Shown here in pieces: positions 2,561 to 54,291 of a stretch of 64,000 nucleotides of DNA. Every line of letters starts with the position of its first letter. The stretch's first letter is position 1. A program made the translations under genes and the position numbers. This DNA is from a virus, in IMG/VR virus record IMGVR_UViG_3300013114_000447, positions 62,001 through 126,000 of that record, one strand, 5' to 3'. The notes under the pieces are model-generated. The model saw nothing but the letters and a program-made list of their open reading frames with translations. It was not told where the DNA came from and searched no databases.

Positions 2561-2897
2561 AATAATTTTGTCAGCCACGCTGATTTTATCAATTTTTATA
2601 AATATAGGTTTGATTGCATATGCCCGGGCAGTTGTGATTCGAATTTTATCTGTCTCCGAAGAATTAAATGATTTGCAAACAATGATTGGATCTTTTACGA
2701 CCCATCTGCAAACAGTGTATGAACTTGATTCTTTTTATGGAGACGAGACACTAAGAGGGTTATTAGAGCACGCCATTTCTCTCAATGAACAAATGGATAC
2801 TTTTGATTACATTATCTCGTTAACAGAAGCAGATACCCCATCAACAGAAGAAGGATTAGATGACGACACCACCCAAGAAGAAGAGAGCCCGACGTAA
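2547..2897 (+). CDS. Single-span membrane protein, hypothetical
   Basis: 116 aa with one N-terminal transmembrane segment (about residues 5-27, hydrophobic ILSATLILSIFINIGLIAYA), then an amphipathic helical region and a very acidic C-terminal tail ending DDDTTQEEESPT. The short N-terminus suggests a signal anchor with the bulk on the far side or in the cytoplasm; orientation cannot be fixed. It overlaps both neighbours, so it is likely cotranslated with the late sigma factor gene. No family recognised. Confidence 0.7.
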   Translation: MSRLEIILSATLILSIFINIGLIAYARAVVIRILSVSEELNDLQTMIGSFTTHLQTVYELDSFYGDETLRGLLEHAISLNEQMDTFDYIISLTEADTPSTEEGLDDDTTQEEESPT

Positions 2898-3561
2898 AAA
2901 TCATTATTTTACCTCGGATCATGAGGAGGCAATAATTCGATATGCAAAATCTACTTGCCAACGCGAGCGCACAGAATTATATGTACAATATATTCAGCCG
3001 GCCTTTAATGAAATGGTTGACAAGATTGTTTTTACATATAAATTTACTAACTTGCCAAATTGTGATTCATTGCGAGATGAGTGCAAAATTTGGTTAATGA
3101 CCATTTTAGATAAATACGACCCGAGCAAAGGCTCTAAAGCCTTCTCGTATTTTTCCGTAATTACTAAAAATTGGTTTATTCACAAAGTTAAACGCCAACA
3201 AAAACGCAACAAACGTGAAGTGGATTACGATAATATTTCAAAAGCATATGAAGAAGAATTTCTTTCAACAAATGACTCTTATATCACCGAGCGTGAAGAA
3301 AATGAATTTTGGCAATCCTTCTATAAAGAATTGCAATCGTGGGACGCGTCCCAGATGAAAGAAAACGATTTAAAAGTTTATCAAGCGATTAATATCCTTT
3401 TTGAATCAAAAGAAGAGATTGATATTTTTAACAAGAAAGCTATTTATTTATACTTACGAGAGATCACCGGGCTGAACACCAAGCAGATTGTGAATTCTCT
3501 TAAAAAGTTTAGAAAAAAATACTATAACTTTAAAGACGACTGGGAAAACGGAGCCTTATGA
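2860..3561 (+). CDS. Late-transcription sigma factor, T4 gp55-like
   Basis: 233 aa. The segment YDPSKGSKAFSYFSVIT followed by KNWFIHKVKRQQ (about residues 86-114) is the sigma70 region 2 signature as it appears in T4 gp55-type factors, which direct host RNA polymerase to phage late promoters. There is a basic N-terminus and a basic C-terminal helical region that could be the clamp- or DNA-binding part. It lacks region 4, as gp55 does. It overlaps the next small gene by ATGA. In T4 the promoter element is TATAAATA; see the ACTATTTAT motif reported for this genome. The assignment to this family is strong; the detailed mechanism is inferred. Confidence 0.82.
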   Translation: MTTPPKKKRARRKNHYFTSDHEEAIIRYAKSTCQRERTELYVQYIQPAFNEMVDKIVFTYKFTNLPNCDSLRDECKIWLMTILDKYDPSKGSKAFSYFSVITKNWFIHKVKRQQKRNKREVDYDNISKAYEEEFLSTNDSYITEREENEFWQSFYKELQSWDASQMKENDLKVYQAINILFESKEEIDIFNKKAIYLYLREITGLNTKQIVNSLKKFRKKYYNFKDDWENGAL

Positions 3562-16493: not shown

Positions 16494-19400
16494 AAAACTT
16501 TTTGGCTCTGTGGAAGATGGCAGAAATTACCTTTCCGATACAGACCAGAAAGAAGCATTCAAAGATGTAGAATCGGAACGCAATTTAGAACAGCTTAAAG
16601 AAAAGCAATCTAATTTCGTTCCGCAAGTCGATTATTCTGATCCTAGGTTCTTTGCTCGCTTTGGATCTGCCTACTACTATTATAAAGGCGCGATGGAGCG
16701 CATTACGGATTATTATCCTTATGATGGTTCGGATGCCGAAATCAATGGCTTCTACAATAAGCTTTTAGATGTAGAAAAATACATTTTCAACAACTTGTAT
16801 CCACGCACGAACGGATATGTTGAGTTAGGCGAGGCCACAACTACGTCACTTAGCAAGCTTAGCGGCGGATATGCCACTCCCACTACCAAAGAATATATCA
16901 CTCTCAAGGGCGGCCCGAACGCCATCGACTCCGCTGGTTCATTAGTTAAAGCTAGCAACAATCCATACTCAGACAAGTTTCAATATTCAAATGTATACGA
17001 CACTAGCATTTATACCACAGCGGGACTTCCTTCCGATTATGGTGTAGGAACACGCCAATCAAATCTTCAATGTAATTTTGATACTGGTGTGTCTATCGAA
17101 TTTTGGTTAAAGAAACCCACTTTTGGAACGTGTCCCGAAACTGTCTTTGATTTATGGACAAGCGGCTCACAGAGCGGCTCAGTAGATTATGGGAGAATCA
17201 CCGTCGAGCTTACAGGCGCCTCTGGCGTCAGTCCTTTCTTGCTGACGGTGCAGTCAGGAAGTGCAGTATCCATCGAACCCGGAATGACGGCGGCAGGTAT
17301 TTTTCAGCAATCGATTGGCTCTGGTATAACAGCCGCCTCACTCGATACCTGGACTCATGTGGCGCTGGTGATGTACAATACTGGTTCTGATTTCGCTTCA
17401 AAATTATATATTAACGGCGGACTAAACGACACCTATGTAACTGGATCTACGACTATAAATCAACTTAAGCAAAAAGATACTTTTGCGCGCATCGGTGCAT
17501 TATTGACCGCTCCATCTGGCGCTGCAGCCACCGCCGACAGCGCCGTTGCTGATTACGATGGGATTAATAAACTTAGTGCCTCGATGGATGAGTTCCGATT
17601 TTGGAAAGAAAAGCGCTCCGGAGAAGACATTGGGCGCTATTGGTTTTCCCAGGTAAGGGGCGGTACAAACACAGATATTTCTAACACGACCCTTGGTGTC
17701 TATTACAAATTTAACGAGGGCATAACGGAAACCAGCAGTGTTGATAGCAATGTTTTGGACTATGCCGGCCGTATCACCAATGGCGTATGGACGGGCTATG
17801 GAACCAACTCTCGAAGTACCGGCTCTGCTATGATAGAGTCCAGTGCTTCCGCACAAGAATATAAAGATCCTATTATATATTCCTCACACTCCTCAGTATC
17901 TAATTTGAAGTCTGAATTGCTGGCTACTGGATCATATCATGATGCACAAAATAATTCAATGTTTCGAAATTATGCCCCATCTTGGATTATCGAAGAAGCA
18001 GAGCAATTGGGCAACAATAATCTAGATGTTGTCTCACACATTGTAGGCACTTATTTTGATAGAGTTCACCTGCTTTCACAACAGGTGCCCAAGTTGAGAG
18101 GTATAAATTATACTAGTGCTTCTTCTGAACCAGTTCCATTCGCCCAACACTTACCACAATCATTAGGTCTTTATACTCCCGAAATCTTTATCGACGCAAA
18201 TGTGATGGAGAGATTCTTAAATAGAAACAATGACATGTTGTTTGAAAATGATTTAGATGAAACCAAAAATCTGATCTACCTTAATCTTTATAATAATCTA
18301 GCTAATATTTTTAAATCGAAAGGCACCGAAAGATCTTTGCGAAATGTTCTTCGATGTTTTAACATTGACGAACAGATTGTTAAAATAAATACTTATGCTA
18401 AAAATACAACCTTCCCGCTCAGCAACAATTATGAACAAGTAATAGAAAAAGTTTCTTATGCTAATTTCGACAAGAAAGAAAATCGAACTGCGGTAATTTA
18501 TCAACGTGCTGATAGTACAAATCCGAATAGCCGAGGTTATATACCGACTGGATCTAAACCCGGTAGCGAAGGAGGAACTGAATACGCCAACTACGAAATG
18601 CAATATGGTTGTACAATCGAAGGACAGATAATGTTCCCGCATTGGAGTGTAGACTATTCCGACAACCAACGCGATTATACCACCGTCTCTCTTTTTGGAG
18701 GGATTACTCCTTACACCTCGTCGGCCGATGGTCTTACTGGGGCTGACACAAGTGCCAACTATCCGGATTATACCAATTTTCAAGTTCAAGCCATCAAGAC
18801 CGGTCCAAATTCTAAAGATGTATACTTTAAACTAACATCTTCTGCTCCTGCTTACGGTGTCCCCGAGCAATTTCCCACATTAACCAGTAGTGTTTTCTCG
18901 AATGTGTATGATAACACTACCTGGAATCTTTCGGTACGAGTTAAGCCCAAGCTTGATGGACCTATTACTACTGTCTCAGGCGCTTCAGTAACCCAATATG
19001 ACGTAATATTTGAAGGAATTAATATTGATTTAGGGACTATCGAAAACAGCTTTACTGTGGGAGGTGTCGTTAGCGCTGCGACAGGCAGCGCTTCTGACTT
19101 CTTGACGCGCCCAAAGCGACTCTATGTTGGTGCCCAGCGAACTAATCTTACTGGCCCCGTAGTACACAAATCAGATGTTCTTGTTGGTTCGCTGCGCTAT
19201 TGGGCCAAAGCCCTGAATACCGGCAGCTTGAGCCAGCATGCGCACGATATTGATAACTATGGAATTTCAGGTTCTTATCAAAGTGTGGCGGCTATTGACA
19301 CTGCCAACAAGAGTGCCGATGTTTTAAACCTCAACACACTAGCTTTAAATTGGGCTTTTAATCAATTAAGTTCTTCCAACTCTACGGGCGTCTTTGTGGT

Positions 19401-22400
19401 GCCTGATATAAGCTCTGGCTCAACATCGTTGGCTACGGATTATGGGCCCATGGGTACTATCACTGGCTATCAGCATAACGGTTATGGATACGATTTTCCG
19501 AATAGCAGTACCGATGCAATTGAGAAGAGACTCACCAATACGTTTAAATTTATTTCGCCCGAAAGAGCGACGTCCGCCGACGCAATTCAAATTTTATCTG
19601 AAGACGACAAGGTCTTTGGGATTACAGAGACAGTACCAAATTATGTCTATACTGTTGAAAAAAGCATGTATCGCGCGGTTTCTGAAGAGATGCTTGATTT
19701 CTTTGCAGGAGTTGTGGACTTTAATAATGTTATAGGCGCTCCAGTTAATCGTTATCGCGGCCGTTATAAATCATTAGAAAAACTGCGAGAGATCTTTTTC
19801 CGCAAAGTAACAAAAACAAGCCAAGTTGAGAAGTTTGTTGAATATTATAAATGGTTCGACGACGCCATTGGGCACATCATGGCTCAAATGGTTCCGGCCT
19901 CATCCGATTTTGTTGCGGATGTTTATAATACAGTTGAGAGCCATGTCCTTGAGCGTAATAAATATCAAACCAAGTATCCAAGCTTGGAGACCAAACAAAA
20001 CCATCCCGAAGCTCAAATGGAGGGTGTTGGCGGCCTAGGAATTACTTACAAAAACTATTCTAGCCCAGTGCCAGCCTCTCCTCGTAATACCAATCAAAAT
20101 ATACAGTATTGGCTTAAAAAAGCAAAACGCTCTGAACCAGAAATTACCTCGGGTAATCCCACAATTGATACGCAAAGAGAAAATATGCGTCAAATTATTA
20201 ATACTGCGCCCCGAGCATCGACAAAGCCCGGCGAATTAATGACTTCCGGCATCGCCGGATCCGGAACGAAGTATTTTCAGGATTTCTATCCTCAAAGAAA
20301 TTATCAAAAGCTTTATAAATTAAAATCTTATGATGCCGATGCTTCCATTCACGGAGGGGTAAACTTCAGCAAAGATCAAAATATTCAGTATACCTATAAC
20401 TCTCTATATCCTTTTGGTCCTGTTAGTACCGAAGAGAACCGATTTATTCCTTTGAACGTTCTTGTTGGATTAACCTCTGATCTGGTATCCATACAAGATT
20501 TTGAAGATGATCGAGAGTTACGCAGAAAAGTAAAAAGAGTTTTCAAAGTGCAGTCTGCACGGCGGTGGTATCAAGATGAGGGATATAGTGATGTAAAATC
20601 CTCTATGGCCTTCCCTTTTAATATAATGAGTTCATCCCTAAACTCTGGATATAACAAAGAAGTACAAACAAAAGTTGGCGCCAACATTGAAATTACAAAC
20701 TTGCACAATGATACTTACGGCCAAGCGATGGGCACCCCCATGCAAGGGCCCTTTACCGAAAAATACGTAGGAGGACACCAATCACGTCACATCACTTATA
20801 ATTCAGGCGCAACAGATACCTACCTCACACGTCCTGAAGCCTGGAAGCTTTTATTGGGACAGTGCGCAGATCAAGGCTCCGGCGCCATTGGCATGGCTTC
20901 TCCTACCTATCCTTATCCTGATATTGGAGCCCCCCCAAGTTCTGCTTATGGTCGTATTGATTTTACTTCTAATCCGATTACTGATAATTCTGTGACAATA
21001 AGCGATGGAGACACTAGTCTTACATTTACAATTCCCTTTATGAATACATACGCTACTCATCACGCGGATCAGGTCAGAAGCTATATTGTTATCGGCGGAG
21101 ACAATTCCTCTAGCTACGGCAATCCGACTTTAGCAGAACCTCAATATTTTGATATTGACGCAGGAACTTATTCATGTTGGATATCGGGAAGCATCCCTAT
21201 GACTGGCAACGGAAACCTTATTATCATGGGTGTGAACCACGCCACTTTTAATTTTAGCCTGATTGATGATGGGTCAACTCCCCCAGGATCCTCCCCGGCA
21301 TCTAAATTGAGACTTACACAACAGTGGCTCAACGGCGCATCCGCGGGCTCTACAGTGAATTCTTATTGGACTACTGACAACAAAGAAGTGCCTTTAGGGC
21401 AGTGGAATCACGTGGCGGTTACATGGGATGCTACTACAACCGGCAGTACCGAGCCCGTATTTTTTGTAAATGGAGTGCAGGTCGATTCTTCGCGCGATGG
21501 AAGTGCCGTGCCGACAGCCGCTGGATCTACTTTAAGACTTGCATTGAAAGCCCGCAGCGGTCTTCCTTCTGGAAATCCGAAAGTTACATGTTTAATAGGT
21601 GGTTATAATGCATCAAATGCAATTAGTGGCGCCATGGATGAGGTCTCCATATGGCAATTAAGCATGAGTGCCGATCAAATTAGTGAATTATATGCTACGG
21701 GAAGTGTAACTGATCTGATGCAACATTCTGTATATACGAGCAACAATTCCAATCTTAGAGCATGGTATCGAATGGGCGACGATCCCAATGATGCTATTGA
21801 TGGCACAGGAGTTTATGACCTGGGAACCAACTCTATAGTCGACCAAACCGGCAGATATAACGGCACTCCTGGCGAAGACATGACCGTAGATTTTGCCACA
21901 AATGTTATAACAAGCTCGGCAACAGGAGATAATATAGCCTGGACACGCGGAGGCAACACTAATGCTACTGCCGTTAATTTGACTACAGCTATCAATGCTC
22001 AAAGCTTTAATATAGTAGCTAGTAACCCCGAAGGTGACGCAGAAACTATTACGGTATCTAACACTAAATATGGAGTTCCGACCTCCACTAAAAAAGAGGC
22101 CCGCGGAAGTCTTGGAAACGTAAGCCTATCAAGAGTCGGCTCTCGTATCAGCGTAGAAGGCATGCAAGGCGGAAGCGATCCACAAATTATAAACTTTAAT
22201 GCTCCTCGCGCAACTTATTATCGTGAAGAATTAGCTAAAAGACCAGTTAACATTCGCAACATTCAAATGACCACTGGGTCCACTATTATTGGAAATTACC
22301 AAAACAACTATGAAGTTGTTAGCACGGTTGGAGCTTTCGCTAATCCGCGAGATTTCATCGAAAATCAGCCCACGCTGCCTTCTGTGATTACTACTAAAAC

Positions 22401-25400
22401 CAACTTGAATCGCGGCGGAGCCAATCGTTTTACGGGAAGAACTGGGCAAGCAGTATTAAACTATTTAACGCTTGATCGAGCATCTGGTAGTCATTACGAT
22501 TTTGAGCTTGATTATGGCATAACTGATAACAGTGGCTCTTATGCCAATAAGTCGGTTATCATCACGCGCTTCGGAGCCCCCGGCTCTCGCGAGACCATGG
22601 CAAGAGGATACCAAGACTTCAAGTCTTCCGAATTCTCAGCATACAATGCCACCCCTTATAGAAACTTAAGCGTTTTAAATGCAGGACAATCAAATGAAAT
22701 AGACGCCCAAACTAAAGTGGGGGGTTTTGGCTATATTGTAAACGATCTTCATAACAGGCCTTTTGGTTTAAACCAACACTTAACACGCCACACCGCACGC
22801 TTTGGACGTGACGATATGGCAGTAACAGGCACAACTTTCGCTACAGACGGTCCAGGCGCCTCCTACAATCAATTGCCCGGATTTCACAAGGTACATCGAA
22901 ACGTCAAGAGAAGACTTGAAACCATAGGAGACGGTTCACAGGTAACGGCTAGTGTATACGATAACTGGTATGTTAGACATCAAATCCCACGATCAGATAT
23001 GCAATATACATGGATTACCGCATCTTTGGTAAGCAACAATGATCATTTTGGTTACTTGCCTGCCAGTTACGAAGTAAGCACTTCGGCAGGATACACGGAA
23101 CCTTATAATTTTGTGAGCGCCAGCGATTTTGGAATCTACCAATACACCGGTTTCGGTGGTGGACTCTGGCGATTAGGCGCCACTAAGAAGATGGTTCAAA
23201 ATTACTATACCATCGGTGTTGATGCTGATTTTTTACCCTTAGACTTTGCTGGGATGAATACTATTATATATGACCACTTTTCTGCAAGTTCTAATGTGCT
23301 CGGGTTGCGCTCACCGGAGAGTGTTTACGACTATAATCTCTATGACCCACCCCAGACTAGGTTTTATTTCAACACTACTGTGATCACAAACGCGGGATTG
23401 ATTAATCCAGGCATCCCGGGCTGGCTATGGGGCGCTCCGATTCCCAAGGGCGCATTCGACGCGCGCGCATTTAACCTGTTGAACCTTCACCGTAATGGCC
23501 CTTACGGATGGCCAATCTTTAAGCAGATTGATTATAACAATCCTCTCACTCGTTATGAACGCCGCAATAATCAGATTTCAATCTTAATGGCCGATTCTGG
23601 CGCTTATGGTACCGATTTCAAAACTTTCGACTTAAGTCCAGTTTCAATGCGCGCACACCCTGGCAAGATCAACTTTGATAATAATTCTCAAGATATGACT
23701 ATTGTGGCTAGTCATAACAACGCGAGAATCTTTTTTAAGGAAGCTGAACTTAACGATCTTGTGAATATTAACTATTCTGATATTGTAACTCCCTTTGAGC
23801 AAATGCTTGACGTCACGACTATGGGAGACAGGTATAGCACCAATTGGATTATGTATAGTCAACAGTTATACCCATCAGAGAGAAATGAGTTTGAAAGCTA
23901 TATCACTAAGAGAACTGGATATAACAATAAATTCTGGCGTTCAACACAAGCGCAGCGTATCGATCAAGCTCAAGGTGACGGTGTTCCTCCGTTGCGAGGC
24001 GGAACCCTTATCCCTAATTCGTGGGGATGCCCGTGGCTCGCTCCCCTTCCGGATCAGCGCGCCGCAGCAGGCATGTATGGTGGCAACTATATTCAACTTA
24101 CACAATCATCATGGCCATTAGATCCTGTTAAGGATTTTCTCACGCGTCCTCAAGCTACTCGGCACCCACGCTTAGGTGCCGGCTCGCCGGCTTCCTACAG
24201 AGAGGGCGGTATTAAGTTTAGAAACTCAGGCTCCGGCGAGCTTCAGAATCAATATATTATGCCGGCATTTCGGCCCTCTTATTTAGCATATGTGGTTGGT
24301 GTTGGAGACTTTGGCTCGCCCGGTGCGCTATATTCTCGTAAACAAACACTAGGCTCTTACAAATCCGTTGTAAGTCCCTATGGCATTGTGCTGCCTAGCA
24401 CGGGCGCCCTATCTTCTGCACTAGATCCTCGCGAACAAATTGAGACTTTTGCAGGAGAGGCAGTTTGGGATTGTCCCACTTATGCCGGCATTAACATTCA
24501 AACTGGAAGCACCTTTACTTTCCAATCTCAAAGTTCCGATCCTTGGTTTAGCGATTACGAGACATTCCAGTACGATTTGAAACTAGCAGCGAAAGACTAT
24601 TCTATTGTACCGGAATTCCGCATTAGCGAGCATATTGCGGATTTTAAGAAATATGGATTATTCGGTGCACATAATAGTGATATTTTCGAAATTCCCGGTA
24701 CCGGCATTAATAGTGCAAAGAGCAGCAGCTTCTACCGCGATTATTCTAATTCTGAATTTATGAAGGGCTTTTTAAATATTAAAGAAGATTCCGGTATTTT
24801 ACCACGCGAGATAGAAATCGAATGTGAAGCAGCCATTAGATTTAATCCTTATAAAGGATTTTACCCCGTTCAGCGCTCATTAGATCTTGTATCCCAATGG
24901 TCTAGTTCCTATGCAGACGGGATCACTGTAACCGTTGATGGAGATGGCACAACCTCGATGGGCCCAACAATTGGTTCCAGTAGTTTCGGACAGAAGTTGC
25001 TTACCGATATGGGGCTCTATATTAGACCTATGATCGCGCCTCTCTTTGCGCCCGGTATTCTCTACAATTCTATTAAGTCTGGAATGGCGGTAGATTATCC
25101 TGTTGTCACAGACGATACAAAGATATTGCGCTGGCCGTTTTTCTCTGCGTCTATCGACACCTCCGGGGTCGCCGACACGATTAAGGGACCAGAGAAGCGA
25201 GATACTTGGGCTTTGACAATCAACCCAAATACCTTAAAAGTTAGCGCTAACGATACTAACGGATATGATGGAAAGTCTTTCTTTGATAAGAGACTTCCAT
25301 TTGAAACCATGATCAAGCCTGAAGGTCAGATAGATGGGATGCAATTCATTGATATGGAATCAAATATTTCTTGTTCAGCTTTGACAACTGCTTCATTTGC

Positions 25401-27666
25401 TAGTCCTGCTGTCGATGATAATTATACTTTAATGGCTAGCAATTATTTTGCCGAGATTGGGAACTTTTTCCTTAAAGATTCTCACTATACTAAATTAGAA
25501 TCAGATATTATTGCTGATAAGCTTAAATTTGAGAGCGGGAGCGTGTATGCAGCGCGCATTAAACTTAAGAGATCCTATATCGGCGCACGTACATATGAAA
25601 ATGAAATCGATTCCGGCGGGTTTACCTTTGCTGCTAATGGAACCCAAGGCCGATGGCGCCTCTTTGGCGGCGCCGGCCAAGAGATTGATGATCTACCATA
25701 TCCTTCCGGTGCTTATTTTCCTGTGCCTCAAGATCCAACTCGACAAGACGGCTTTAGAGAGAGTTTCACCCTTTACAGTCGACCAACTGCCTTTGGCCCG
25801 CCAATAGCCGCTTTGCGCAAGACAGGATCAAATGCGCATGTTCCCAATGATACCACGGTTGCGCAACTCGAAACCGCGATTAGCGAACAAACGGGTAATT
25901 ACCCTCACGATTCTATTAATGGGTTTAACTGGGCGTTTACTCCCCCTTACTATGATGGAGAATCATGGGCAGATGTTATTTTCCGACCTGATTCCACTAA
26001 AGAATATAGTGTCCAAGATATCTTAGCCGATTCTAAAGTACGCTACTGGCGCCATGACGCCGGAGGTCCCCATGGCGCGGATTCGTTAGGCTTCGTGGGA
26101 AACCTTTCCGGAGCTTATATTGGTTTGTCCCGCGGTATTTATGATGGAGAAAATATTAACCGTAATGCGATGCAAATATCTGCTAGTATTAATTTGTTTG
26201 GATTTGAACAAGTGCCATTTACCGAAAGAGATGCTTTCGGGAACGTGGTAACTACCCGCGACACCACGACAGGAACTCGATGGGTTCTCCAGCCTAAATT
26301 TGAAACCCCGCACTTAAACTTTAATGATGCTTATAACCAAGCACAAATGCCTATTTATGGTTCTGCTTCTGTGCCAATTGGGATTTGGCACCAATTTGGC
26401 AAAATCCCCACAAATCCAGAGGTAGGAATTTTCTTAGAGATTGACGATATACCAGAACAATGGCAAAAATATCACTATGATATGTTTTATTATGACAGCA
26501 TCTATAATGATAATAATGCGGCCTCTTTTGTGGCGGGCAAAACACCATTTAGATCATTGACTGATGTTTTTGGATTCAAGTCCAATAGTAAATCTAAACG
26601 TCTAGGAGAATTGGCCGATTCGCAAACACTTAGAGAGGCTATTGTGGCTATCCCATATTATACGGAACAAACCCCTGGTGATTATAGTTTGACTACCGAG
26701 AAGACCGCCCGAACCCAGTATACTAAAAAATTCATTAGTATTCCCAAGGAAAGAATACAAGCCGCAGCCGAAGAGCAAGTGGGTTCTCTAGAAGGAGATT
26801 CTTTGGACACTGCGGGGTCTTCGATTAGAAAGCTTTTACAGAAGATGGATCGCTACGTCCTTCCTCCGCAATTTGATTTTAAATCTAATAAAAACATTGA
26901 TCCTATTGCTATGTATATTATAGAATTTGAATATAAACTAGACAAAGACGATTTGTCCTATATTTGGCAAAATATGGCACCGAGAGATTATAAGAAGCTT
27001 TCATTCCAGAAATCATCTGTAGCCCACGAATTGATGGACACAGAATTATTATCGGGGCATAATATTCTTGAGAGCGAAAATTTACGCTGGATGGTGTTTA
27101 AGGTTAAACAAAAATCGCAAGCCTTTTATGATGATTCTGTGGTCGCACAAATCGGACAGACAACTAGAGACGCCTTTATTCAGCAACGCCGAAGAACCGA
27201 GCAAGGCTATAATCTAAATTACAACTGGCCTTATGACTATGTATCTTTTGTTGAGATGGTTAAAGTAAACGCCAAGGTGCTTTATGGCGGCCGCAGCACC
27301 GGTGTTCAAGGAGAACGAGTGCCTGCTGGTCAAAACGAACGTGTTCCTGTCTTAGAAACGCCAGCGCGCGAAGGGTCGCGAACTCTTCCGAGAGCGGCAG
27401 CAATAAATGAACAAGTAGCGGAAAGAGTACGAGCCCTCCCCCGGAGAGCACGACGCCGCGCCGCCCGCGGAGCCAGAGGCCGCCAAGCGACTCTTCCGCT
27501 TGCCGATCAACAAACACGAGCAACTGCTCGTCGCCAGGGGCGCCGGCGTAACAACACTAATACCACACGCCGCGCAACTAATCCGACTCGCACGCGAAGA
27601 ACTCGCCGCGGCAGAGGCGGTGGCGGTAATCGCGGCGGAGGTGGCCGCGGCGGCGGAGGTTATTAA
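16483..27666 (+). CDS. Giant tail/adsorption protein with two LamG-like domains and an RGG C-terminal tail (3727 aa)
   Basis: 3727 codons without interruption. A first LamG/concanavalin-like domain lies near 200-370 (VSIEFWLKKPTF, TWTHVALVMYN, SMDEFRFWKE) and a second near 1560-1740 (YSCWISGSI, QWNHVAVTWDA, AMDEVSIWQLSMSADQIS); such domains bind glycans or proteins. Long beta-rich stretches lie between. From about residue 3640 the protein turns into an Arg-rich tail (LPRRARRRAARGARGRQ) ending in an RGG box (RGRGGGGNRGGGGRGGGGY). The glycine codons there also supply the GGAGG ribosome site of the next gene. It probably forms the peripheral baseplate or a receptor-binding apparatus; no single known fibre family is matched. 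Confidence 0.7.
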   Translation: MSIKKLFGSVEDGRNYLSDTDQKEAFKDVESERNLEQLKEKQSNFVPQVDYSDPRFFARFGSAYYYYKGAMERITDYYPYDGSDAEINGFYNKLLDVEKYIFNNLYPRTNGYVELGEATTTSLSKLSGGYATPTTKEYITLKGGPNAIDSAGSLVKASNNPYSDKFQYSNVYDTSIYTTAGLPSDYGVGTRQSNLQCNFDTGVSIEFWLKKPTFGTCPETVFDLWTSGSQSGSVDYGRITVELTGASGVSPFLLTVQSGSAVSIEPGMTAAGIFQQSIGSGITAASLDTWTHVALVMYNTGSDFASKLYINGGLNDTYVTGSTTINQLKQKDTFARIGALLTAPSGAAATADSAVADYDGINKLSASMDEFRFWKEKRSGEDIGRYWFSQVRGGTNTDISNTTLGVYYKFNEGITETSSVDSNVLDYAGRITNGVWTGYGTNSRSTGSAMIESSASAQEYKDPIIYSSHSSVSNLKSELLATGSYHDAQNNSMFRNYAPSWIIEEAEQLGNNNLDVVSHIVGTYFDRVHLLSQQVPKLRGINYTSASSEPVPFAQHLPQSLGLYTPEIFIDANVMERFLNRNNDMLFENDLDETKNLIYLNLYNNLANIFKSKGTERSLRNVLRCFNIDEQIVKINTYAKNTTFPLSNNYEQVIEKVSYANFDKKENRTAVIYQRADSTNPNSRGYIPTGSKPGSEGGTEYANYEMQYGCTIEGQIMFPHWSVDYSDNQRDYTTVSLFGGITPYTSSADGLTGADTSANYPDYTNFQVQAIKTGPNSKDVYFKLTSSAPAYGVPEQFPTLTSSVFSNVYDNTTWNLSVRVKPKLDGPITTVSGASVTQYDVIFEGINIDLGTIENSFTVGGVVSAATGSASDFLTRPKRLYVGAQRTNLTGPVVHKSDVLVGSLRYWAKALNTGSLSQHAHDIDNYGISGSYQSVAAIDTANKSADVLNLNTLALNWAFNQLSSSNSTGVFVVPDISSGSTSLATDYGPMGTITGYQHNGYGYDFPNSSTDAIEKRLTNTFKFISPERATSADAIQILSEDDKVFGITETVPNYVYTVEKSMYRAVSEEMLDFFAGVVDFNNVIGAPVNRYRGRYKSLEKLREIFFRKVTKTSQVEKFVEYYKWFDDAIGHIMAQMVPASSDFVADVYNTVESHVLERNKYQTKYPSLETKQNHPEAQMEGVGGLGITYKNYSSPVPASPRNTNQNIQYWLKKAKRSEPEITSGNPTIDTQRENMRQIINTAPRASTKPGELMTSGIAGSGTKYFQDFYPQRNYQKLYKLKSYDADASIHGGVNFSKDQNIQYTYNSLYPFGPVSTEENRFIPLNVLVGLTSDLVSIQDFEDDRELRRKVKRVFKVQSARRWYQDEGYSDVKSSMAFPFNIMSSSLNSGYNKEVQTKVGANIEITNLHNDTYGQAMGTPMQGPFTEKYVGGHQSRHITYNSGATDTYLTRPEAWKLLLGQCADQGSGAIGMASPTYPYPDIGAPPSSAYGRIDFTSNPITDNSVTISDGDTSLTFTIPFMNTYATHHADQVRSYIVIGGDNSSSYGNPTLAEPQYFDIDAGTYSCWISGSIPMTGNGNLIIMGVNHATFNFSLIDDGSTPPGSSPASKLRLTQQWLNGASAGSTVNSYWTTDNKEVPLGQWNHVAVTWDATTTGSTEPVFFVNGVQVDSSRDGSAVPTAAGSTLRLALKARSGLPSGNPKVTCLIGGYNASNAISGAMDEVSIWQLSMSADQISELYATGSVTDLMQHSVYTSNNSNLRAWYRMGDDPNDAIDGTGVYDLGTNSIVDQTGRYNGTPGEDMTVDFATNVITSSATGDNIAWTRGGNTNATAVNLTTAINAQSFNIVASNPEGDAETITVSNTKYGVPTSTKKEARGSLGNVSLSRVGSRISVEGMQGGSDPQIINFNAPRATYYREELAKRPVNIRNIQMTTGSTIIGNYQNNYEVVSTVGAFANPRDFIENQPTLPSVITTKTNLNRGGANRFTGRTGQAVLNYLTLDRASGSHYDFELDYGITDNSGSYANKSVIITRFGAPGSRETMARGYQDFKSSEFSAYNATPYRNLSVLNAGQSNEIDAQTKVGGFGYIVNDLHNRPFGLNQHLTRHTARFGRDDMAVTGTTFATDGPGASYNQLPGFHKVHRNVKRRLETIGDGSQVTASVYDNWYVRHQIPRSDMQYTWITASLVSNNDHFGYLPASYEVSTSAGYTEPYNFVSASDFGIYQYTGFGGGLWRLGATKKMVQNYYTIGVDADFLPLDFAGMNTIIYDHFSASSNVLGLRSPESVYDYNLYDPPQTRFYFNTTVITNAGLINPGIPGWLWGAPIPKGAFDARAFNLLNLHRNGPYGWPIFKQIDYNNPLTRYERRNNQISILMADSGAYGTDFKTFDLSPVSMRAHPGKINFDNNSQDMTIVASHNNARIFFKEAELNDLVNINYSDIVTPFEQMLDVTTMGDRYSTNWIMYSQQLYPSERNEFESYITKRTGYNNKFWRSTQAQRIDQAQGDGVPPLRGGTLIPNSWGCPWLAPLPDQRAAAGMYGGNYIQLTQSSWPLDPVKDFLTRPQATRHPRLGAGSPASYREGGIKFRNSGSGELQNQYIMPAFRPSYLAYVVGVGDFGSPGALYSRKQTLGSYKSVVSPYGIVLPSTGALSSALDPREQIETFAGEAVWDCPTYAGINIQTGSTFTFQSQSSDPWFSDYETFQYDLKLAAKDYSIVPEFRISEHIADFKKYGLFGAHNSDIFEIPGTGINSAKSSSFYRDYSNSEFMKGFLNIKEDSGILPREIEIECEAAIRFNPYKGFYPVQRSLDLVSQWSSSYADGITVTVDGDGTTSMGPTIGSSSFGQKLLTDMGLYIRPMIAPLFAPGILYNSIKSGMAVDYPVVTDDTKILRWPFFSASIDTSGVADTIKGPEKRDTWALTINPNTLKVSANDTNGYDGKSFFDKRLPFETMIKPEGQIDGMQFIDMESNISCSALTTASFASPAVDDNYTLMASNYFAEIGNFFLKDSHYTKLESDIIADKLKFESGSVYAARIKLKRSYIGARTYENEIDSGGFTFAANGTQGRWRLFGGAGQEIDDLPYPSGAYFPVPQDPTRQDGFRESFTLYSRPTAFGPPIAALRKTGSNAHVPNDTTVAQLETAISEQTGNYPHDSINGFNWAFTPPYYDGESWADVIFRPDSTKEYSVQDILADSKVRYWRHDAGGPHGADSLGFVGNLSGAYIGLSRGIYDGENINRNAMQISASINLFGFEQVPFTERDAFGNVVTTRDTTTGTRWVLQPKFETPHLNFNDAYNQAQMPIYGSASVPIGIWHQFGKIPTNPEVGIFLEIDDIPEQWQKYHYDMFYYDSIYNDNNAASFVAGKTPFRSLTDVFGFKSNSKSKRLGELADSQTLREAIVAIPYYTEQTPGDYSLTTEKTARTQYTKKFISIPKERIQAAAEEQVGSLEGDSLDTAGSSIRKLLQKMDRYVLPPQFDFKSNKNIDPIAMYIIEFEYKLDKDDLSYIWQNMAPRDYKKLSFQKSSVAHELMDTELLSGHNILESENLRWMVFKVKQKSQAFYDDSVVAQIGQTTRDAFIQQRRRTEQGYNLNYNWPYDYVSFVEMVKVNAKVLYGGRSTGVQGERVPAGQNERVPVLETPAREGSRTLPRAAAINEQVAERVRALPRRARRRAARGARGRQATLPLADQQTRATARRQGRRRNNTNTTRRATNPTRTRRTRRGRGGGGNRGGGGRGGGGY

Positions 27667-44704: not shown

Positions 44705-44755
44705 TTTATCGATAGAGAAGACTATTTATTGATGAATTTACTCTCGGCAGTGTAG
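44705..44755 (+). pseudogene. Duplicated, diverged primase C-terminal fragment (direct repeat copy 2)
   Basis: Encodes FIDREDYLLMNLLSAV and a TAG stop, with no start codon or upstream primase sequence. Against the true primase end it differs at 7 of 51 bases, and only one residue changes (D to E). The synonymous pattern means it diverged under selection as part of a real primase gene, so it came from a related phage or an old duplication rather than a recent copy error. Confidence 0.8.
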
Positions 44756-45828: not shown

Positions 45829-45857
45829 TTGACTCTTGCTTGACAATGAGTTATACT
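45829..45857 (+). promoter_or_regulatory. Sigma70-like promoter of the recombination gene
   Basis: TTGACT at 45829-45834, a 17-nt spacer and TATACT at 45852-45857, in the only sizeable gap of the region. A second TTGACA overlaps (45840-45845) without a good -10 partner. The start site would be near 45864, followed by GGAGGG and the GTG start at 45883. Confidence 0.6.
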
Positions 45858-45882: not shown

Positions 45883-48800
45883 GTGAAGTTTGCACATATA
45901 AGTGATACTCATATCAAAAATCTGAAGTATCATTATGAATATCGAGTCATTTTTGAGCAGTTGTATGAAACGCTGCGGGAACAAAAAGTCGATTACATTA
46001 TACACTGTGGGGATATAGCCCACACCAAGACCCAGATCTCACCAGAGTTTGTTGAGATGTGTTCTGATTTTTTTCGCAGTCTCGCTGAGATTGCACCAAC
46101 CTATATCATTCTAGGAAACCATGACGGCAACCTAAAGAACAGCAGTCGTCAAGACGCACTGACACCGATTGTCGACGCGCTCAATCTGCCGACACTGCAC
46201 TTGCTTAAAGATTCAGGCGAGACTCATTTGAACGACGATTTCTGTTTGAATGTCTTGTCTGTTTTTGATCGAGACAACTGGATGAAGCCCACCAATACTG
46301 ACAAGATCAATATTGCACTTTATCATGGCTCAATCTCTAATTGTAAAACTGATACCAATTGGACGATGAGTTTTGGTGAAGATGATATATCTATCTTTGA
46401 CGATTTTGATTTTTCTATGCTTGGTGATATTCACCGTCGCCAATTCCTAGATCACGATGGACGCGTTTGGTATGCTGGCTCAACTGTTCAGCAGAACCAT
46501 GGCGAGACCAACGACAAAGGTATTCTCATTTGGGATATCAAATCTAAAGACGAATGGGACATTGAGCCGATTGTGTTTAAAAACCCTAAGCCGTTCTTTA
46601 CAATCCCGCTCACACTCAAGGGGCGGATGCCTCGCAATCTCCAAGTACCCACTGGCGCACGCCTGCGATTGGTTAGTAACAATAACCTTCCGCTTAACAC
46701 GATGCGCCGAGCAATGGACATTGCGAAGCATCGCTTTAAGCCCGAGAGCATCTCGTTTCTCAACAGAGCAGCAGGCGAGCGCGGTAATGTAGAAGATCTA
46801 ACTGACGGTATTAAGACAGAAAACCTGCGAGACATTAAAGTCCAAGAAGAACTGATTGACGAGTTCCTTTCAGATTACCAGACCGATGCCACAACCCTAG
46901 AGCGCGTGTTTGAGCTTAACAGCAAGTACAACAAGATTATCGAGGACCGAGAAGAGATCTCTAGAAACGTAAACTGGAGAATCAAGTCGTTTAAATGGGA
47001 CAATCTGTTTAATTACGGAAAGGATAACTCCATCGACTTTGAAAACCTTAACGGCATCATTGGCGTTTTTGGAAAGAACTTCAGCGGCAAATCTAGCATC
47101 ATTGATGCGGCCCTGTATACATTGTTCAACACCACCTCAAAGAACGAGCGCAAAAACCTCAACGTTATTAATCAACATCAAGAATCTTGCGAAGGCGTTT
47201 TAGAGATCGAGATCGGACACAAAGTCTACAACATTAAGCGCACCTCTGAAAAATATACGAAACGCTTGAAAGGTGTTGAGACCTTAGAAGCCAAAACAGA
47301 TTTGAACTTCGAAGTCTATGACCCTGTCACAGACGAGACAACATCCTTAAACGGCACCACACGCAATCAGACGGACGCAAATATTCGAAAGCACTTCGGG
47401 TCCATGGATGATTTTATGGTGTCTTCTCTGGCAAGCCAGCACGGTGCATTGGGATTCATTGATGAGGGTTCGACACGTCGAAAGGAAATCATCGCCAAGT
47501 TCCTCGATTTGGAGCTGTTTGACCAAAAGTTTAAGATGGCCAAAGACGACTCTGTTGAGGCCAAGGCTCTCCTGCGCAAGTATGAGGATCGGGATTACAA
47601 CACTGAGGTGCAGGCATTAGAAACCAGCTTGGAAGACTTGACTGTACAAGCGGAAACTAATCGCACAACTTGCGAGGATTATCGTAAAGAACTTAAACTT
47701 CTGAACGAAGGAGCGAGACGCTTAGACGAGAAGATCAATTCTATTCCTGGCAAGCTTATTGACATCACAAAAGTCATGACAGAGCAAAAAGATAAGCAAG
47801 TGTTGTCGAAGTTGTTGGAGGAGAAGATAACAAGCCAAACAGCACTGGCACTTGTCAAGCAGCAGAAAGTGGCAATATCAGAGAGCTTATTAGAGCTTAT
47901 CGATCATGCCACCCTCACAGCCGACAAAGCAGAAATTGATACTTTAGATCATAGTATTATGAATCTTCGAGAAGAGATTGAAAAGATTGGCAAAAAGGAA
48001 AAGCTTTTGAAGAGTATCCCCTGCGGCGATTCTTATCCTTCGTGTCGATTTATCAAAGATGCCTATATTGACGTAGCTAACAAGCCAGGAATTGAAGCAG
48101 ACCTTCACGCGGCCGCTATGCGTTTAGAAACGTTGTCTCCTGACGACACAGCCGAAAAGCTTGAAGAGTATCGTTTAACGCAAGAACTGATTGTAGAACT
48201 AAAGGCGGAAGTTGCCGCGCTGCAATTAGAATGCGAACGTAATAAGAACACAAAGGCCACAACTGATCAAGAATTGATCACTCTCACCACCAAGGTCGCT
48301 GAATATAAGCAAAACAAAAAGGTTATTGATGGACTTGAAAAAGTCATCAAAGAACGACAAGGTTACCAAACTAAGATCGAGACTAAAAAAGAAAAGATTG
48401 AAATCTGTGATAACGAGACATTAGAGATTGTACGACAGGTGGGTTCCTATGAAGAGAAGATTGAATCTCTCAAGGCTCAAAGTAAGGAGTATCAAGACCT
48501 TCAGAATAGTTATGCGGCATACGATTTGCTTATGCAATGCATGCACCCTAACGGAATCGCTTACGATATTATCAAGAAAAAGATTCCAGTCATTAACCAG
48601 GAGATTGCAAAAGTTCTCGCCAACATTGTTGAGTTCGAAGTGTTTTTTGAGACCAGCGGAAACAAGCTTGACATCTTTATTAAGCATCCTAAGCACGACG
48701 AACGGCCCATTGAAATGGCGTCAGGTGCAGAAAAGACAATGGCCGCGATGGCAATTCGTTTGGCTCTTTTAAGTGTTTCTTCACTTCCAAAGTCGGACTT

Positions 48801-48990
48801 GTTTATCCTCGATGAGCCGGGCACCGCATTGGACGAAGAAAATATGGAGGGTTTTATTAGGATCTTGGAACTAATTAAGGTATATTTTAAGAACGTTCTC
48901 TTGATCTCGCATTTAGACTCTCTCAAAGATTGCGTCGACATGCAGATTGTAATAGAAAAGAAAAAAGGCTACGCAAAGGTAAACCAATAA
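45883..48990 (+). CDS. Fused Mre11-Rad50 (gp47-gp46/SbcD-SbcC) recombination nuclease
   Basis: 1035 aa, GTG start after GGAGGG. Residues 1-~340 are an Mre11/SbcD phosphoesterase (HISDTHIK with D8 and H10, CGDIAH, LGNHDGN, then MLGDIHRRQ). From about 366 a Rad50/SbcC ATPase begins: Walker A G397KNFSGKSS, long coiled coils, a hook-like C714-x6-C721 (CGDSYPSC), the ABC signature MASGAEKTMAAMA and Walker B FILDEPGTALD. In T4 and bacteria these are separate proteins forming one complex that resects DNA ends for recombination-dependent replication. Here they are one chain, with a helical linker near 320-365. It has its own sigma70-type promoter. Confidence 0.93.
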   Translation: MKFAHISDTHIKNLKYHYEYRVIFEQLYETLREQKVDYIIHCGDIAHTKTQISPEFVEMCSDFFRSLAEIAPTYIILGNHDGNLKNSSRQDALTPIVDALNLPTLHLLKDSGETHLNDDFCLNVLSVFDRDNWMKPTNTDKINIALYHGSISNCKTDTNWTMSFGEDDISIFDDFDFSMLGDIHRRQFLDHDGRVWYAGSTVQQNHGETNDKGILIWDIKSKDEWDIEPIVFKNPKPFFTIPLTLKGRMPRNLQVPTGARLRLVSNNNLPLNTMRRAMDIAKHRFKPESISFLNRAAGERGNVEDLTDGIKTENLRDIKVQEELIDEFLSDYQTDATTLERVFELNSKYNKIIEDREEISRNVNWRIKSFKWDNLFNYGKDNSIDFENLNGIIGVFGKNFSGKSSIIDAALYTLFNTTSKNERKNLNVINQHQESCEGVLEIEIGHKVYNIKRTSEKYTKRLKGVETLEAKTDLNFEVYDPVTDETTSLNGTTRNQTDANIRKHFGSMDDFMVSSLASQHGALGFIDEGSTRRKEIIAKFLDLELFDQKFKMAKDDSVEAKALLRKYEDRDYNTEVQALETSLEDLTVQAETNRTTCEDYRKELKLLNEGARRLDEKINSIPGKLIDITKVMTEQKDKQVLSKLLEEKITSQTALALVKQQKVAISESLLELIDHATLTADKAEIDTLDHSIMNLREEIEKIGKKEKLLKSIPCGDSYPSCRFIKDAYIDVANKPGIEADLHAAAMRLETLSPDDTAEKLEEYRLTQELIVELKAEVAALQLECERNKNTKATTDQELITLTTKVAEYKQNKKVIDGLEKVIKERQGYQTKIETKKEKIEICDNETLEIVRQVGSYEEKIESLKAQSKEYQDLQNSYAAYDLLMQCMHPNGIAYDIIKKKIPVINQEIAKVLANIVEFEVFFETSGNKLDIFIKHPKHDERPIEMASGAEKTMAAMAIRLALLSVSSLPKSDLFILDEPGTALDEENMEGFIRILELIKVYFKNVLLISHLDSLKDCVDMQIVIEKKKGYAKVNQ

Positions 48991-49898
48991 TGAAATTATT
49001 AATGGAAAATTGGCGAAAATTTGTCAATGAAACTGAAGAAAATCTTCACGAACTGGATAAGGGCGCGCTTTATGCGTTAAATAATCCAGGCACTCCCTTG
49101 GCAACTTACGTCGCGGTACTTAAGAAATATGCGAATGATCCAGAATTTGATAAGATCGCCGGCGCAGGCCAAGCCGATGGCCAGCCGGCCGATGAGGTGG
49201 CTAAGGTGCAGCCGGGCGCTATAGCTGCACAAGATCTCACAGCGACCCAAGCAGAAATTGGATTTGGAAATAGTCTGGCTGATCAGGTAGCTAATAAATA
49301 CGACGCCACTAAAACTGCTCTTGGACTAAACGGATCTCCAATTGTTATGGCTTCGAAGTCAGGTCCAGTTCCAATTTTAGTATACAATGGAAAATATATT
49401 TTAGACGGGCATCACCGGTGGTCACAAATTATGATGGTCAATCCAGGTGGTACTGTTAAGGTCGACAATTTAACTGGACCCGCTATCGACAATGAAGAAG
49501 AGGCTCTTAAGGTTATGCAATTCGCCATCGCTGCGACTGCTGACAAAGTAGTGACAAAGCCATTTGAGGGTGAAAATTTAATGCAAGCAAACGAGCAACA
49601 AGTAGCGAACTTTGTTCTTAAAAATGTTACTGATGAAGTCTTGCAGCTTTTAGTTCAGGCTGAGAAGATTGAAAAACCAGATAAACGCCTCGCTGCCCAA
49701 TATATTGCTGGTAATCTGCCGGTCATTAAGAAGTCTGCCGGCCGGTTCTCTCGCGAGAAAAGTATGCCTCAAGCCGGCGACTCTGGCGTTTCACAGGATG
49801 CGGTTAATCAAGCGCTTGGCACAGGCAAGGTTAACTTTGATAGCCCCAAGCCGGCCGACGCATATGGGAACCGCCCAGAGAAAAAAGCCGCAGAATAA
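48990..49898 (+). CDS. ParB/Srx-like-fold protein with W-x-x-F-x-N-E tag
   Basis: 302 aa from ATG 48990 (TAATG overlap with the previous stop; the upstream in-frame ATG at 48930 lies within the Rad50 gene). The start MKLLMENWRKFVNETEEN is the second tag type. The centre has PIVMASKSGPVPILVYNGK then ILDGHHRWSQIM (about 138-149), which is the DGHHR signature of the ParB/sulfiredoxin-like fold. The remainder is helical with a Gly/Pro-rich C-terminus. ParB-like phage proteins can bind DNA or act as nucleases; which applies here is unknown. It lies directly before the FtsZ-like gene. Confidence 0.65.
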   Translation: MKLLMENWRKFVNETEENLHELDKGALYALNNPGTPLATYVAVLKKYANDPEFDKIAGAGQADGQPADEVAKVQPGAIAAQDLTATQAEIGFGNSLADQVANKYDATKTALGLNGSPIVMASKSGPVPILVYNGKYILDGHHRWSQIMMVNPGGTVKVDNLTGPAIDNEEEALKVMQFAIAATADKVVTKPFEGENLMQANEQQVANFVLKNVTDEVLQLLVQAEKIEKPDKRLAAQYIAGNLPVIKKSAGRFSREKSMPQAGDSGVSQDAVNQALGTGKVNFDSPKPADAYGNRPEKKAAE

Positions 49899-49913
49899 TA
49901 AACGGAGATTATA

Positions 49914-51041
49914 ATGAACAACCCTGACGATTTTGATTTTGCCGAGACAGCAACGGAAACCAATCCGCCTGCTCTCGAAACCCCTAAAACTAGTGAGTTC
50001 GACGACTTTGATTTCGTCGATCACTATGGAGACGATGAAGAAGTAACCCACGAGAATTTGCTTCCGGAGAACACTGTTCCCGCATCACTGAACTGTGCCA
50101 TTGTTGGCGTAGGTGGAGGTGGGGGCAAGATGGCCAAAGCCTTTCTCGATCTTGGCTACAACAGGACTCTGCTTGTTAATACCACTGCTAAAGATATCCC
50201 TGACGCTGTGGGTGATGAGCATGTGGTTTTGATTCCCGATGCCGATGGCATTGGAAAAGATGTGAATTTAGGAAAAGCTGTGTTTGATGCAAACAGTACA
50301 GTCGTAGAAGATGCCCTCCGCACAAAATTAGGCAAAGTTGACTGGCTGTTCGTTTGCGCTGGAGGTGGCGGTGGAACTGGTTCTGCCGTCGCTTCTCTAC
50401 ACAGCGTCTTTGAGCGCTACCTTAAGTCGGTACAAGCCGAAGGCGAGGTAGTATACATTACGTCGTGGCCGACCGCACAAGAATGCTTGAATCCAACAAT
50501 TAGCAAGAATGCGTTAGCTTTACTTAATGATGTTTCCCAGCACACTCACATCGTTTTGGACAACGAACGCCAAGTTAAATTGTTGCGCGGAAAGGTGGGG
50601 ATGCTGAATCTGTTTCCTTCTGCCAACACGGCGTTTGCAAAGTTAATGACTCAAATTCTCAAACTCTCCAGCGATAAATCGCCGATTCAATCGTTTGATA
50701 CCAAAGATCTAGAAAGATGTTTGCGAACCCCACAAAGAATGTTTATTGGATCGACAATGGTAAAAGATCCCGCTACGCCAAACCTAGGCGCTACGATTCT
50801 TCAGAATTGTATGAAGCGTTCTCCGTGTCCCGCCCCCAAAGGTAAGCCCCAAACCGGCGCATTATTATTGATTGCGTCGTCTGAGATGGCAAACGATCCA
50901 GAGATTAGCAAACACATGGATGCAGCGATTGGATATGTTGGCGGCAGAACAGACACACTTTTTTCAGGTGTTTATATTAATGATAATGTACCTGGGCTCG
51001 TTGCCATACTATGTATGAATGGGCTACCCAAAGGAAAATAA
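49914..51041 (+). CDS. FtsZ/tubulin-like GTPase
   Basis: 375 aa. After a ~55-residue acidic N-terminal arm with two DDFDF motifs (residues 5-9 and 30-34), the core starts with CAIVGVGGGGGKMAKAF (FtsZ G1). The tubulin signature A149-GGGGGTGSA follows, then ITSWPT, and DNERQ at the position of the FtsZ PNDRL. SFDTKDLE aligns with the FtsZ T7 loop NLDFADV and keeps both aspartates, so GTP hydrolysis is plausible. The C-terminal domain (TGALLLIASSEM, then GVYINDN, VAILCMNG) matches the FtsZ activation domain. It lacks the FtsZ C-terminal partner peptide. Phages use tubulins (PhuZ) to position DNA; the role here is inferred. Confidence 0.85.
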   Translation: MNNPDDFDFAETATETNPPALETPKTSEFDDFDFVDHYGDDEEVTHENLLPENTVPASLNCAIVGVGGGGGKMAKAFLDLGYNRTLLVNTTAKDIPDAVGDEHVVLIPDADGIGKDVNLGKAVFDANSTVVEDALRTKLGKVDWLFVCAGGGGGTGSAVASLHSVFERYLKSVQAEGEVVYITSWPTAQECLNPTISKNALALLNDVSQHTHIVLDNERQVKLLRGKVGMLNLFPSANTAFAKLMTQILKLSSDKSPIQSFDTKDLERCLRTPQRMFIGSTMVKDPATPNLGATILQNCMKRSPCPAPKGKPQTGALLLIASSEMANDPEISKHMDAAIGYVGGRTDTLFSGVYINDNVPGLVAILCMNGLPKGK

Positions 51042-53305: not shown

Positions 53306-53499
53306 TGGCTGAGCATAAAGGATTTTTAGATACGTGGTTGTTAAAGCTTACTTCTCGTAAGTTATTGGTATGGATAACTGCGTCTGCATTAGCCTTTACC
53401 GGGTATTTGACGAGCGGTGATTGGGTAGTTATTAGTACCGTCTTCATTGGCACCCAAGGTGCCGTCGACATTGTTGAGAGATTCAAGGGACGCAAGTGA
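53305..53499 (+). CDS. Putative holin-like membrane protein
   Basis: 64 aa, GTG start overlapping the previous TAG. Two hydrophobic segments (LLVWITASALAFTGYL and VVISTVFIGTQGAVDIV) separated by a short turn TSGDW, with a basic C-terminus (ERFKGRK). This is the topology of small class II-type holins. A spanin-like protein follows directly. Confidence 0.5.
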   Translation: MAEHKGFLDTWLLKLTSRKLLVWITASALAFTGYLTSGDWVVISTVFIGTQGAVDIVERFKGRK

Positions 53500-53882
53500 C
53501 ACCACAACAACTGATCATCCAGTTCTTAGTAAAGAATTGGAAAGGAGTATTGATCGTTCTTTTGTCTGGCGTAGTGATGGGCAAAATGCGCTATGACTAT
53601 AAGCAGATGCAAGCGGCATACGAGGCTTCAGAACAATCTCTGCAAGCTCAGATTGCTGGACTGCAAGAGATCCACAAGAAGCAAATGGCGGATATGGAAG
53701 AATCACTACAGGTCTACAAAGATACCTTAGATCAAGTAGAACAAGATTACCAAGAGAGCCAAGAAGAATTGCTCGAAGAGATCGAGAACCGTAGAGAAGA
53801 ATACGGAAGACAATTCTCTCAAGACCCAGAAGAACTAGCGGAGACTATAATGTTAATGTACGGATTTAATTATGTTCCTTAG
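53496..53882 (+). CDS. Putative i-spanin (Rz-like)
   Basis: 128 aa, GTG start. One N-terminal span (NWKGVLIVLLSGVVMG) then a long coiled coil (about 35-115, e.g. YEASEQSLQAQIAGLQEI and QVEQDYQESQEELLEEIENR). An inner-membrane anchor plus periplasmic coil is the i-spanin layout, which helps fuse the membranes in Gram-negative lysis. No clear lipoprotein partner (o-spanin) is seen; the next gene has a signal peptide but no lipobox. Confidence 0.5.
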   Translation: MTPQQLIIQFLVKNWKGVLIVLLSGVVMGKMRYDYKQMQAAYEASEQSLQAQIAGLQEIHKKQMADMEESLQVYKDTLDQVEQDYQESQEELLEEIENRREEYGRQFSQDPEELAETIMLMYGFNYVP

Positions 53883-54291
53883 TCTATTATTAATGTTAAC
53901 AGGCCCGGCCCAGGCCGAGGACGCAGGACAATTTACCTTTCTAGGGCACCAGCAGTGTGCCCCGTTTGAGGGTGTGCTTTTTGATGTGCCAGCGTTGTCT
54001 GAAATCATGGCGCGCCAGTCCACCGCCAATCTCGCATGCCAAGCACGAATTGACTATGAACTTTCAGTTGAAATTGCAAGCTACGAGCTAGAACTTCGCA
54101 ATTGGGAGATTCAGTATAACGCCCTACATGAAGAAAGCAGTCTTCTGATCTTCCAGAAGGATGAAGAGATTGACCACCTTCAAAGAACTCTCTTGAAGCA
54201 ATCCCCCCGCAATAATTGGATGTGGGCCGCCGGCGGTGTTGGAGTAGGAATCTTAAGCACCTATGCAGCCTATAGGCTGTTTAATGAGTGA
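53872..54291 (+). CDS. Signal-peptide protein with C-terminal membrane span, lysis cluster
   Basis: 139 aa. Signal sequence MFLSLLLMLTGPAQA with a plausible cut after AQA, then FTFLGHQQCAPFEGVLFDVP, a helix-rich middle with coiled-coil character (LIFQKDEEIDHLQRTLLKQ) and a C-terminal span (MWAAGGVGVGILSTYAAYRL). I recall similar proteins in marine phages. It follows the spanin-like gene with an 11-nt overlap. A role in lysis or envelope disruption is inferred from context. Confidence 0.55.
   Translation: MFLSLLLMLTGPAQAEDAGQFTFLGHQQCAPFEGVLFDVPALSEIMARQSTANLACQARIDYELSVEIASYELELRNWEIQYNALHEESSLLIFQKDEEIDHLQRTLLKQSPRNNWMWAAGGVGVGILSTYAAYRLFNE

Follow-up and report, generated by a model that had tools for sequence, protein, structure and literature searches.

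A tubulin/FtsZ-superfamily gene in uncultured T4-type phages and its possible role as a filament-forming GTPase

To our knowledge, the phage tubulins of known function have so far come from nucleus-forming jumbo phages (PhuZ) or from plasmid-like prophages (TubZ). The window analysed here, a 64,000-nucleotide stretch of a virus record (IMGVR_UViG_3300013114_000447, positions 62,001 to 126,000), raises the question of what a tubulin-like protein would do in a phage of T4 type. The original prediction described an FtsZ/tubulin-like GTPase with intact nucleotide and T7-loop motifs, apparently closer in motif style to FtsZ than to PhuZ and encoded beside a ParB-like gene.

The tubulin core and the two ends of the protein

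In the window, the gene belongs to a tightly packed series of genes that share its strand. Its translation matched PF00091, the GTPase domain with the G-G-G-T-G-[ST] signature, above the Pfam cut-off (E 2.1e-8, 35.1 bits; cut-off 33). The same profile matched all 40 members of alignment A2, and a few relatives fell slightly below the cut-off, for example L062 at 32.6 bits. The FtsZ profile TIGR00065 gave a match (E 2.2e-9, 37.1 bits) far under its equivalog cut-off of 295.2, and weakly matched 44 of 44 family members; every member of the two family alignments matched a tubulin or an FtsZ profile. Compared with two close relatives, the core had a dN/dS of 0.05-0.07, indicating strong purifying selection. 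The open reading frame thus encodes a true tubulin/FtsZ-superfamily protein, as had been predicted.

The motifs proved to be intact. In 52 relatives, non-redundant at 90% and with identity down to 52%, residues G152, G153, G154, T155, G156, S157, K72, N89, N217, N238, Q259, D262 and D265 were invariant (52/52), a set that takes in both halves of the inter-subunit active site. The proposed alignment of SFDTKD with the FtsZ loop NLDFAD held for both aspartates and failed at the first T7 residue, which is S, T, A or V in the phage family and N in FtsZ.

An AlphaFold2 model built on a 44-sequence alignment (mean pLDDT 87, core about 95, core blocks 84-97) predicted a full tubulin fold, in which a GTPase domain (residues 61-224) is followed by the central helix H7 (230-251) and then by the activation domain. 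The second, independent model, of the divergent member L062, reached a mean pLDDT of 91.5, and both models show the two-domain fold, the central H7 and catalytic-type acidic residues in the T7 loop. Among the best 50 PDB matches listed, VIA-align scored the first model highest against TubZ (Z 32.5), followed by CetZ2 (32.1), with FtsZ at 28.4, and the corresponding values for the L062 model were 31.9, 31.8 and 28.6. The best match extended over 312 residues at 2.4 A, and the similarity of the predicted fold to PDB structures is far beyond chance. PhuZ chains did not appear among those 50, from which we draw no inference of absence. In a viral structure library searched with Foldseek, the nearest entries were two unstudied phage proteins (TM 0.73 and 0.66), and PhuZ proteins scored about 0.5.

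The core is preceded by an acidic, low-complexity arm (Table 1). For 87 of 98 sequences the distance between arm motif and core is 25 residues, and for the others 23-24, whereas the length of the stretch N-terminal to the motif ranges from 3 to 128 residues. An arm that binds one particular site on its own filament would be expected to show such fixed spacing. At the other end, 98 of 98 near-full-length sequences stop 0-7 residues past the last strand/G370 (the window protein has 4 after residue 371), and neither these sequences nor the model contained an H11 helix, a C-terminal tail or an FtsZ-type C-terminal linker or peptide. Because all of them end so close to the core, the family lacks both the FtsZ C-terminal peptide, which is the site for FtsA, ZipA and SepF, and the H11 helix with the tail that TubZ and PhuZ have. 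TubZ ends in an H11 helix and a tail that recruits its cofactor, and the PhuZ tail holds the filament together (PMC3678025).

Table 1. Features of the tubulin gene and of the gene run that contains it (window coordinates)
Feature	Position	Strand	Basis or remark
Candidate late-promoter motif ACTATTTAT, before the 44766 gene	44721..44729	+	nearest upstream copy, about 5.2 kb 5' of the tubulin gene
Sigma-70-like promoter match TTGACT-17-TATACT, 5' of the SbcCD-ParB-like-tubulin run	45829..45857	+	consensus match only
SbcCD / T4 gp46-gp47-like recombination nuclease, one polypeptide	45883..48990	+	same gene run as tubulin
Upstream neighbour, ParBc_2-like below cut-off	48990..49898	+	likely ATG at 48990, giving MKLLMENWRKFVNE..., capsid-targeting-like
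GGAG, ribosome-binding-site-like, directly 5' of the tubulin ATG	49904..49907	+	sequence
Tubulin/FtsZ-superfamily phage gene, 375 aa	49914..51041	+	ATG start, ORF list, Pfam, AlphaFold2 model
Acidic N-terminal arm, residues 1-57 (30% D/E, 2% K/R), low-complexity	49914..50084	+	residues 1-45 predicted disordered
Arm motif DDFDFVDHY, residues 30-38	50001..50027	+	family consensus [DE]F[DG][FM][VI][DE]x[YF]
T1 (G1) loop GVGGGGGK, residues 65-72	50106..50129	+	glycine-rich; sequence, alignment
T4 tubulin signature GGGGGTGSA, residues 150-158	50361..50387	+	GGGTGS invariant
T7 loop QSFDTKDL, residues 259-266	50688..50711	+	D262 and D265 invariant
C-terminal activation domain, residues about 263-371	50736..51026 (residues 275-371)	+	AlphaFold2 model

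Distribution, neighbouring genes and candidate promoters

Two viral-contig scans gave about 130 distinct viral loci with the gene among the matches listed, and the second scan found at least 270 relatives among candidate stretches. No match was obtained by tblastn (E 0.01) in 50,697 phage genome records, and a second family member used as query at E 10 gave chance matches only. All 14 long records tested carried the gene once only. Judged by terminase, immuto (46% TerL identity) and Mel-JY01 are the closest cultured phages of T4 type, and a profile search of immuto, Mel-JY01, S-PM2 and LR756508 gave no match. In a sample restricted to close relatives by TerL, 13 of 15 records carried the gene; for the remaining two, the available stretch of the locus stops too close upstream of TerL to reach the expected place. 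Among loci found via a related capsid protein the gene was nearby in 1 of 80, and of 12 longer, mostly incomplete records of this capsid-related group one had it, far from the capsid gene. Beyond the window lineage it is therefore a gene of mobile position whose frequency is patchy or unmeasured, and we claim no core-gene status for it in the wider group.

Two different phage tubulins (L079 and L080) were found on short contigs in one bin of a Flavobacteriales assembly, SZUA-1004, and the bin also has an FtsZ of its own (L158). The two contigs are probably phage DNA binned with, or infecting, that community. Together with the similarity of TerL to that of a Flavobacterium phage, they hint weakly at Bacteroidota hosts.

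The assignment of the genome to the T4 type was borne out by TerL, portal, prohead protease, baseplate wedge, RuvC, primase, an SbcCD of the gp46/47 kind and a late sigma factor. The SbcD (gp47) and SbcC (gp46) homologues are fused into 1035 aa, as they are in many relatives (cluster 8), and the gene at 2860-3558 matched the late sigma transcription factor family weakly (phrog_234, E 1.5e-4). Elsewhere in the window, an Rz-like spanin gene (phrog_1152) and the conserved gene that comes next and overlaps it, at 53496-54291 between the tubulin gene and TerL, are possibly the lysis cassette, and a single 3727-aa open reading frame with a repetitive arginine/glycine-rich C-terminus occupies 16483-27666 in the tail/baseplate region. 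Rfam and tRNA scans of the window returned nothing.

Many unrelated small proteins share a start peptide, M[KS][IV]TK.[QK]L..[II]..E, among them those beginning at 44766, 51207, 51553, 52108 and 55224 in the window and others in L117, L005 and further loci. A second type, MKLLxExWxxxxxE, opens the genes at 48990, 60477 and 61980. These peptides resemble the capsid-targeting sequences of T4, which are cleaved by the prohead protease, and the proteins that bear them may be head-packaged.

The gene at 48990 is the ParB-like neighbour that the original prediction had pointed out. Its ParBc_2 match (E 0.058) is below the Pfam cut-off, it begins with a capsid-targeting-like peptide, and its family occurs in just 18 of 104 distinct tubulin loci, at differing positions. 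We therefore rejected it as a conserved partner, and a functional pairing with the tubulin for partition is probably not to be read from its proximity. Depending on the clade, the tubulin gene stands after SbcCD, between the major capsid, neck and sheath genes, near TerL, portal and protease, or near phoH. It was always on the strand of its neighbours, and no conserved neighbouring adaptor gene was found across the tubulin loci.

When would the gene be expressed? The most strand-biased abundant 8-mer of the tubulin loci was ACTATTTA, with 163 forward and 7 reverse copies, most often 20-60 nt 5' of ATG start codons; in the capsid-related loci the bias was 222 to 6. In the window, ACTATTTA(T) occurred 12 times on the forward strand (13126, 16203, 22460, 33035, 38173, 38258, 38288, 43292, 44721, 54496, 61201 and 63716) and never on the reverse, against about 2.9 expected for both strands together. 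The T4 late promoter TATAAATA was also considered and rejected, as it occurred in both orientations with no strand-biased upstream pattern. Going by its bias and placement, ACTATTTA is a candidate late promoter of the present T4-type lineage, unlike the TATAAATA of T4. This candidate motif lies 27-45 nt 5' of the tubulin ATG in L018, L020, L022, L079, L092 and L118. In the window, the copy at 44721 stands at the start of the series of genes in which SbcCD and then the tubulin gene follow, and the sigma-70-like match at 45829-45857 is a second candidate promoter. Within the clade of the window, the tubulin gene comes after recombination genes with no late motif adjoining, which suggests that timing may differ between clades.

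Possible roles of the phage tubulin

Judged from the invariant motifs and the predicted fold, GTP-dependent assembly of the phage tubulin is very probable. The T1 and T4 loops would bind GTP, and the next subunit would supply the T7-loop aspartates that complete the active site for hydrolysis in trans, so that hydrolysis would need head-to-tail filaments. We know of no role for the T7 aspartates other than against a neighbouring subunit. The acidic arm probably docks on a neighbouring subunit or on a phage partner, and may stand in for the C-terminal tail of PhuZ and TubZ. If the tubulin is made when virions are assembled, as is probable, the filaments might serve to place phage DNA or capsids within the infected cell, by analogy with PhuZ but without a phage nucleus. 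For this reading in full, a late-expressed, GTP-driven filament that organises phage DNA or capsids, we see the chances as evenly balanced. The variation in the position and presence of the gene counts against it. More tentatively, the family could represent a fifth prokaryotic tubulin type, in which nucleus-less T4-type phages use filaments built with the N-terminal arm, in place of a C-terminal tail, to position capsids or phage DNA late in infection.

Other readings of the same evidence have to be weighed. The protein might act on the host instead, co-assembling with, capping or competing with host FtsZ so that septation is blocked and the cell stays one large factory. Phages are known to attack FtsZ, T7 Gp0.4 being an example (PMC13423816); FtsZ and the phage protein have elements of the longitudinal interface in common, and the acidic-aromatic arm could mimic a peptide of a division protein. 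However, a pure inhibitor would have no need of both catalytic T7 aspartates and a nucleotide pocket of its own at 100% conservation, the family is a divergent clade of its own and no recently captured FtsZ, and a takeover factor would be expected to act earlier than the late-gene context suggests. We consider such interference with division unlikely.

The repeated placement of the gene beside capsid, protease, portal and neck genes would also suit a GTPase that forms no long filaments and takes part, either as a switch or as a small oligomer, in packaging or in building the head. This is somewhat more doubtful still, as the placement is not fixed, the neighbours vary by clade, the invariant T7 aspartates imply head-to-tail contacts, and T4-type phages in which the gene was not found (immuto, Mel-JY01 and S-PM2) build heads without it. 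Least probable of all, in our judgement, is a TubZ-type partition motor that keeps the phage genome as a plasmid in pseudolysogeny. In its favour, the TubZ fold is one of the closest matches, the TubZ clade is weakly the closest one (94/93, then 82/70), and in the window a ParB-like gene adjoins. Yet we rejected a TubRC-type cassette: tubC-like iterated repeats were not found within 48.4-52.3 kb, nor tandem repeats at 45-56 kb, and the gene directly upstream does not encode a small DNA-binding (HTH) protein. Also missing from the protein is a C-terminal tail, with which TubZ recruits its cofactor (PMC3678025), and the genome is of the lytic T4 type.

If the preferred reading, a filament that organises phage DNA or capsids, is true, ordinary large myophages of a broad uncultured T4-type group build a cytoskeleton too, and cell-organising filaments may be commoner in phages than one would judge from the few giant, "nucleus-forming" examples. 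The 'spindle' would then no longer be tied to the 'phage nucleus', and the combination of an N-terminal arm with a missing tail would offer a new natural design for testing how tubulin filaments are stabilised.

Comparison with known tubulins

In a maximum-likelihood tree, the phage family (99/99), FtsZ (100/99) and PhuZ (100/100) each formed a clade, and the phage tubulins form by sequence a clade of their own apart from FtsZ, TubZ, PhuZ and CetZ. TubZ was the nearest group, with support of 94/93 that fell to 82/70 after removal of two long branches. The tree contained long branches and only two CetZ rows, and the AU test rejected no alternative (FtsZ p 0.09, CetZ p 0.14, PhuZ p 0.26), so that TubZ as sister group is only suggested. 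We also searched 296 genomes of the phylum to which the Flavobacteriales assembly holding two family genes belongs. Profile A1 otherwise gave only FtsZ-level scores there (at most 48 bits), which argues against a recent host origin; on the strength of these scores and the separate clade we rejected recent capture of a host FtsZ.

The proposed closeness to FtsZ stands only in part. By structure matches and in the tree, the protein is nearer to FtsZ, TubZ and CetZ than to PhuZ, but it is not especially FtsZ-like: its fold scores were about 32 for TubZ and CetZ against 28 for FtsZ, and its best single sequence match is the archaeal CetZ 3zid (E 1.3e-8). It has the GTPase loops, the T7 DxxD, PF00091 and weak TIGR00065 matches in common with FtsZ, whereas it reaches 37 bits against the 295 of the equivalog cut-off, lies outside the fully supported FtsZ clade and has no C-terminal linker or peptide. 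CetZ2 has a fold score near the best; unlike CetZ, the present gene is phage-encoded, and it did not group with CetZ in the tree, although the AU test does not reject such a grouping. TubZ of Bacillus plasmids and phage c-st is the nearest solved fold, at 17% identity, but the phage family differs from it in the missing H11 and tail, the motif-bearing N-terminal arm and its own long-branch clade, and no tubC-like repeats were found at the window locus.

PhuZ of the phiKZ-type jumbo phages is likewise phage-encoded, and a T7 aspartate of the present protein is equivalent to PhuZ D190, for which a mutant has been described (PMC4244570). The PhuZ family PHROG 4733 gave a weak, partial match (E 0.005). 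Unlike PhuZ, to which it is 13-16% identical, the present family is tail-less and is found in a T4-type genome. By sequence, phiKZ gp54 (chimallin) had no match in the virus record, in a search without a positive control and on a record that may be incomplete.

The closest viral structures were A0A6J5RW92 ('FtsZ cell division GTPase') and A0A8S5UFG9 ('cell division protein'), both of uncultured Caudovirales (Foldseek E 3.4e-22 and 2.5e-17). They are just 16-18% identical to the phage tubulin and by sequence belong to a different family, and they indicate that databases already contain unstudied FtsZ-like phage proteins other than PhuZ. In the open literature, subscription journals being outside the scope, we found no description of the present family. 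The phage tubulin is a kind already known, with phage 'FtsZ' entries in databases, and we claim no categorical novelty for it; in architecture and genome type, the present family differs from all characterised families.
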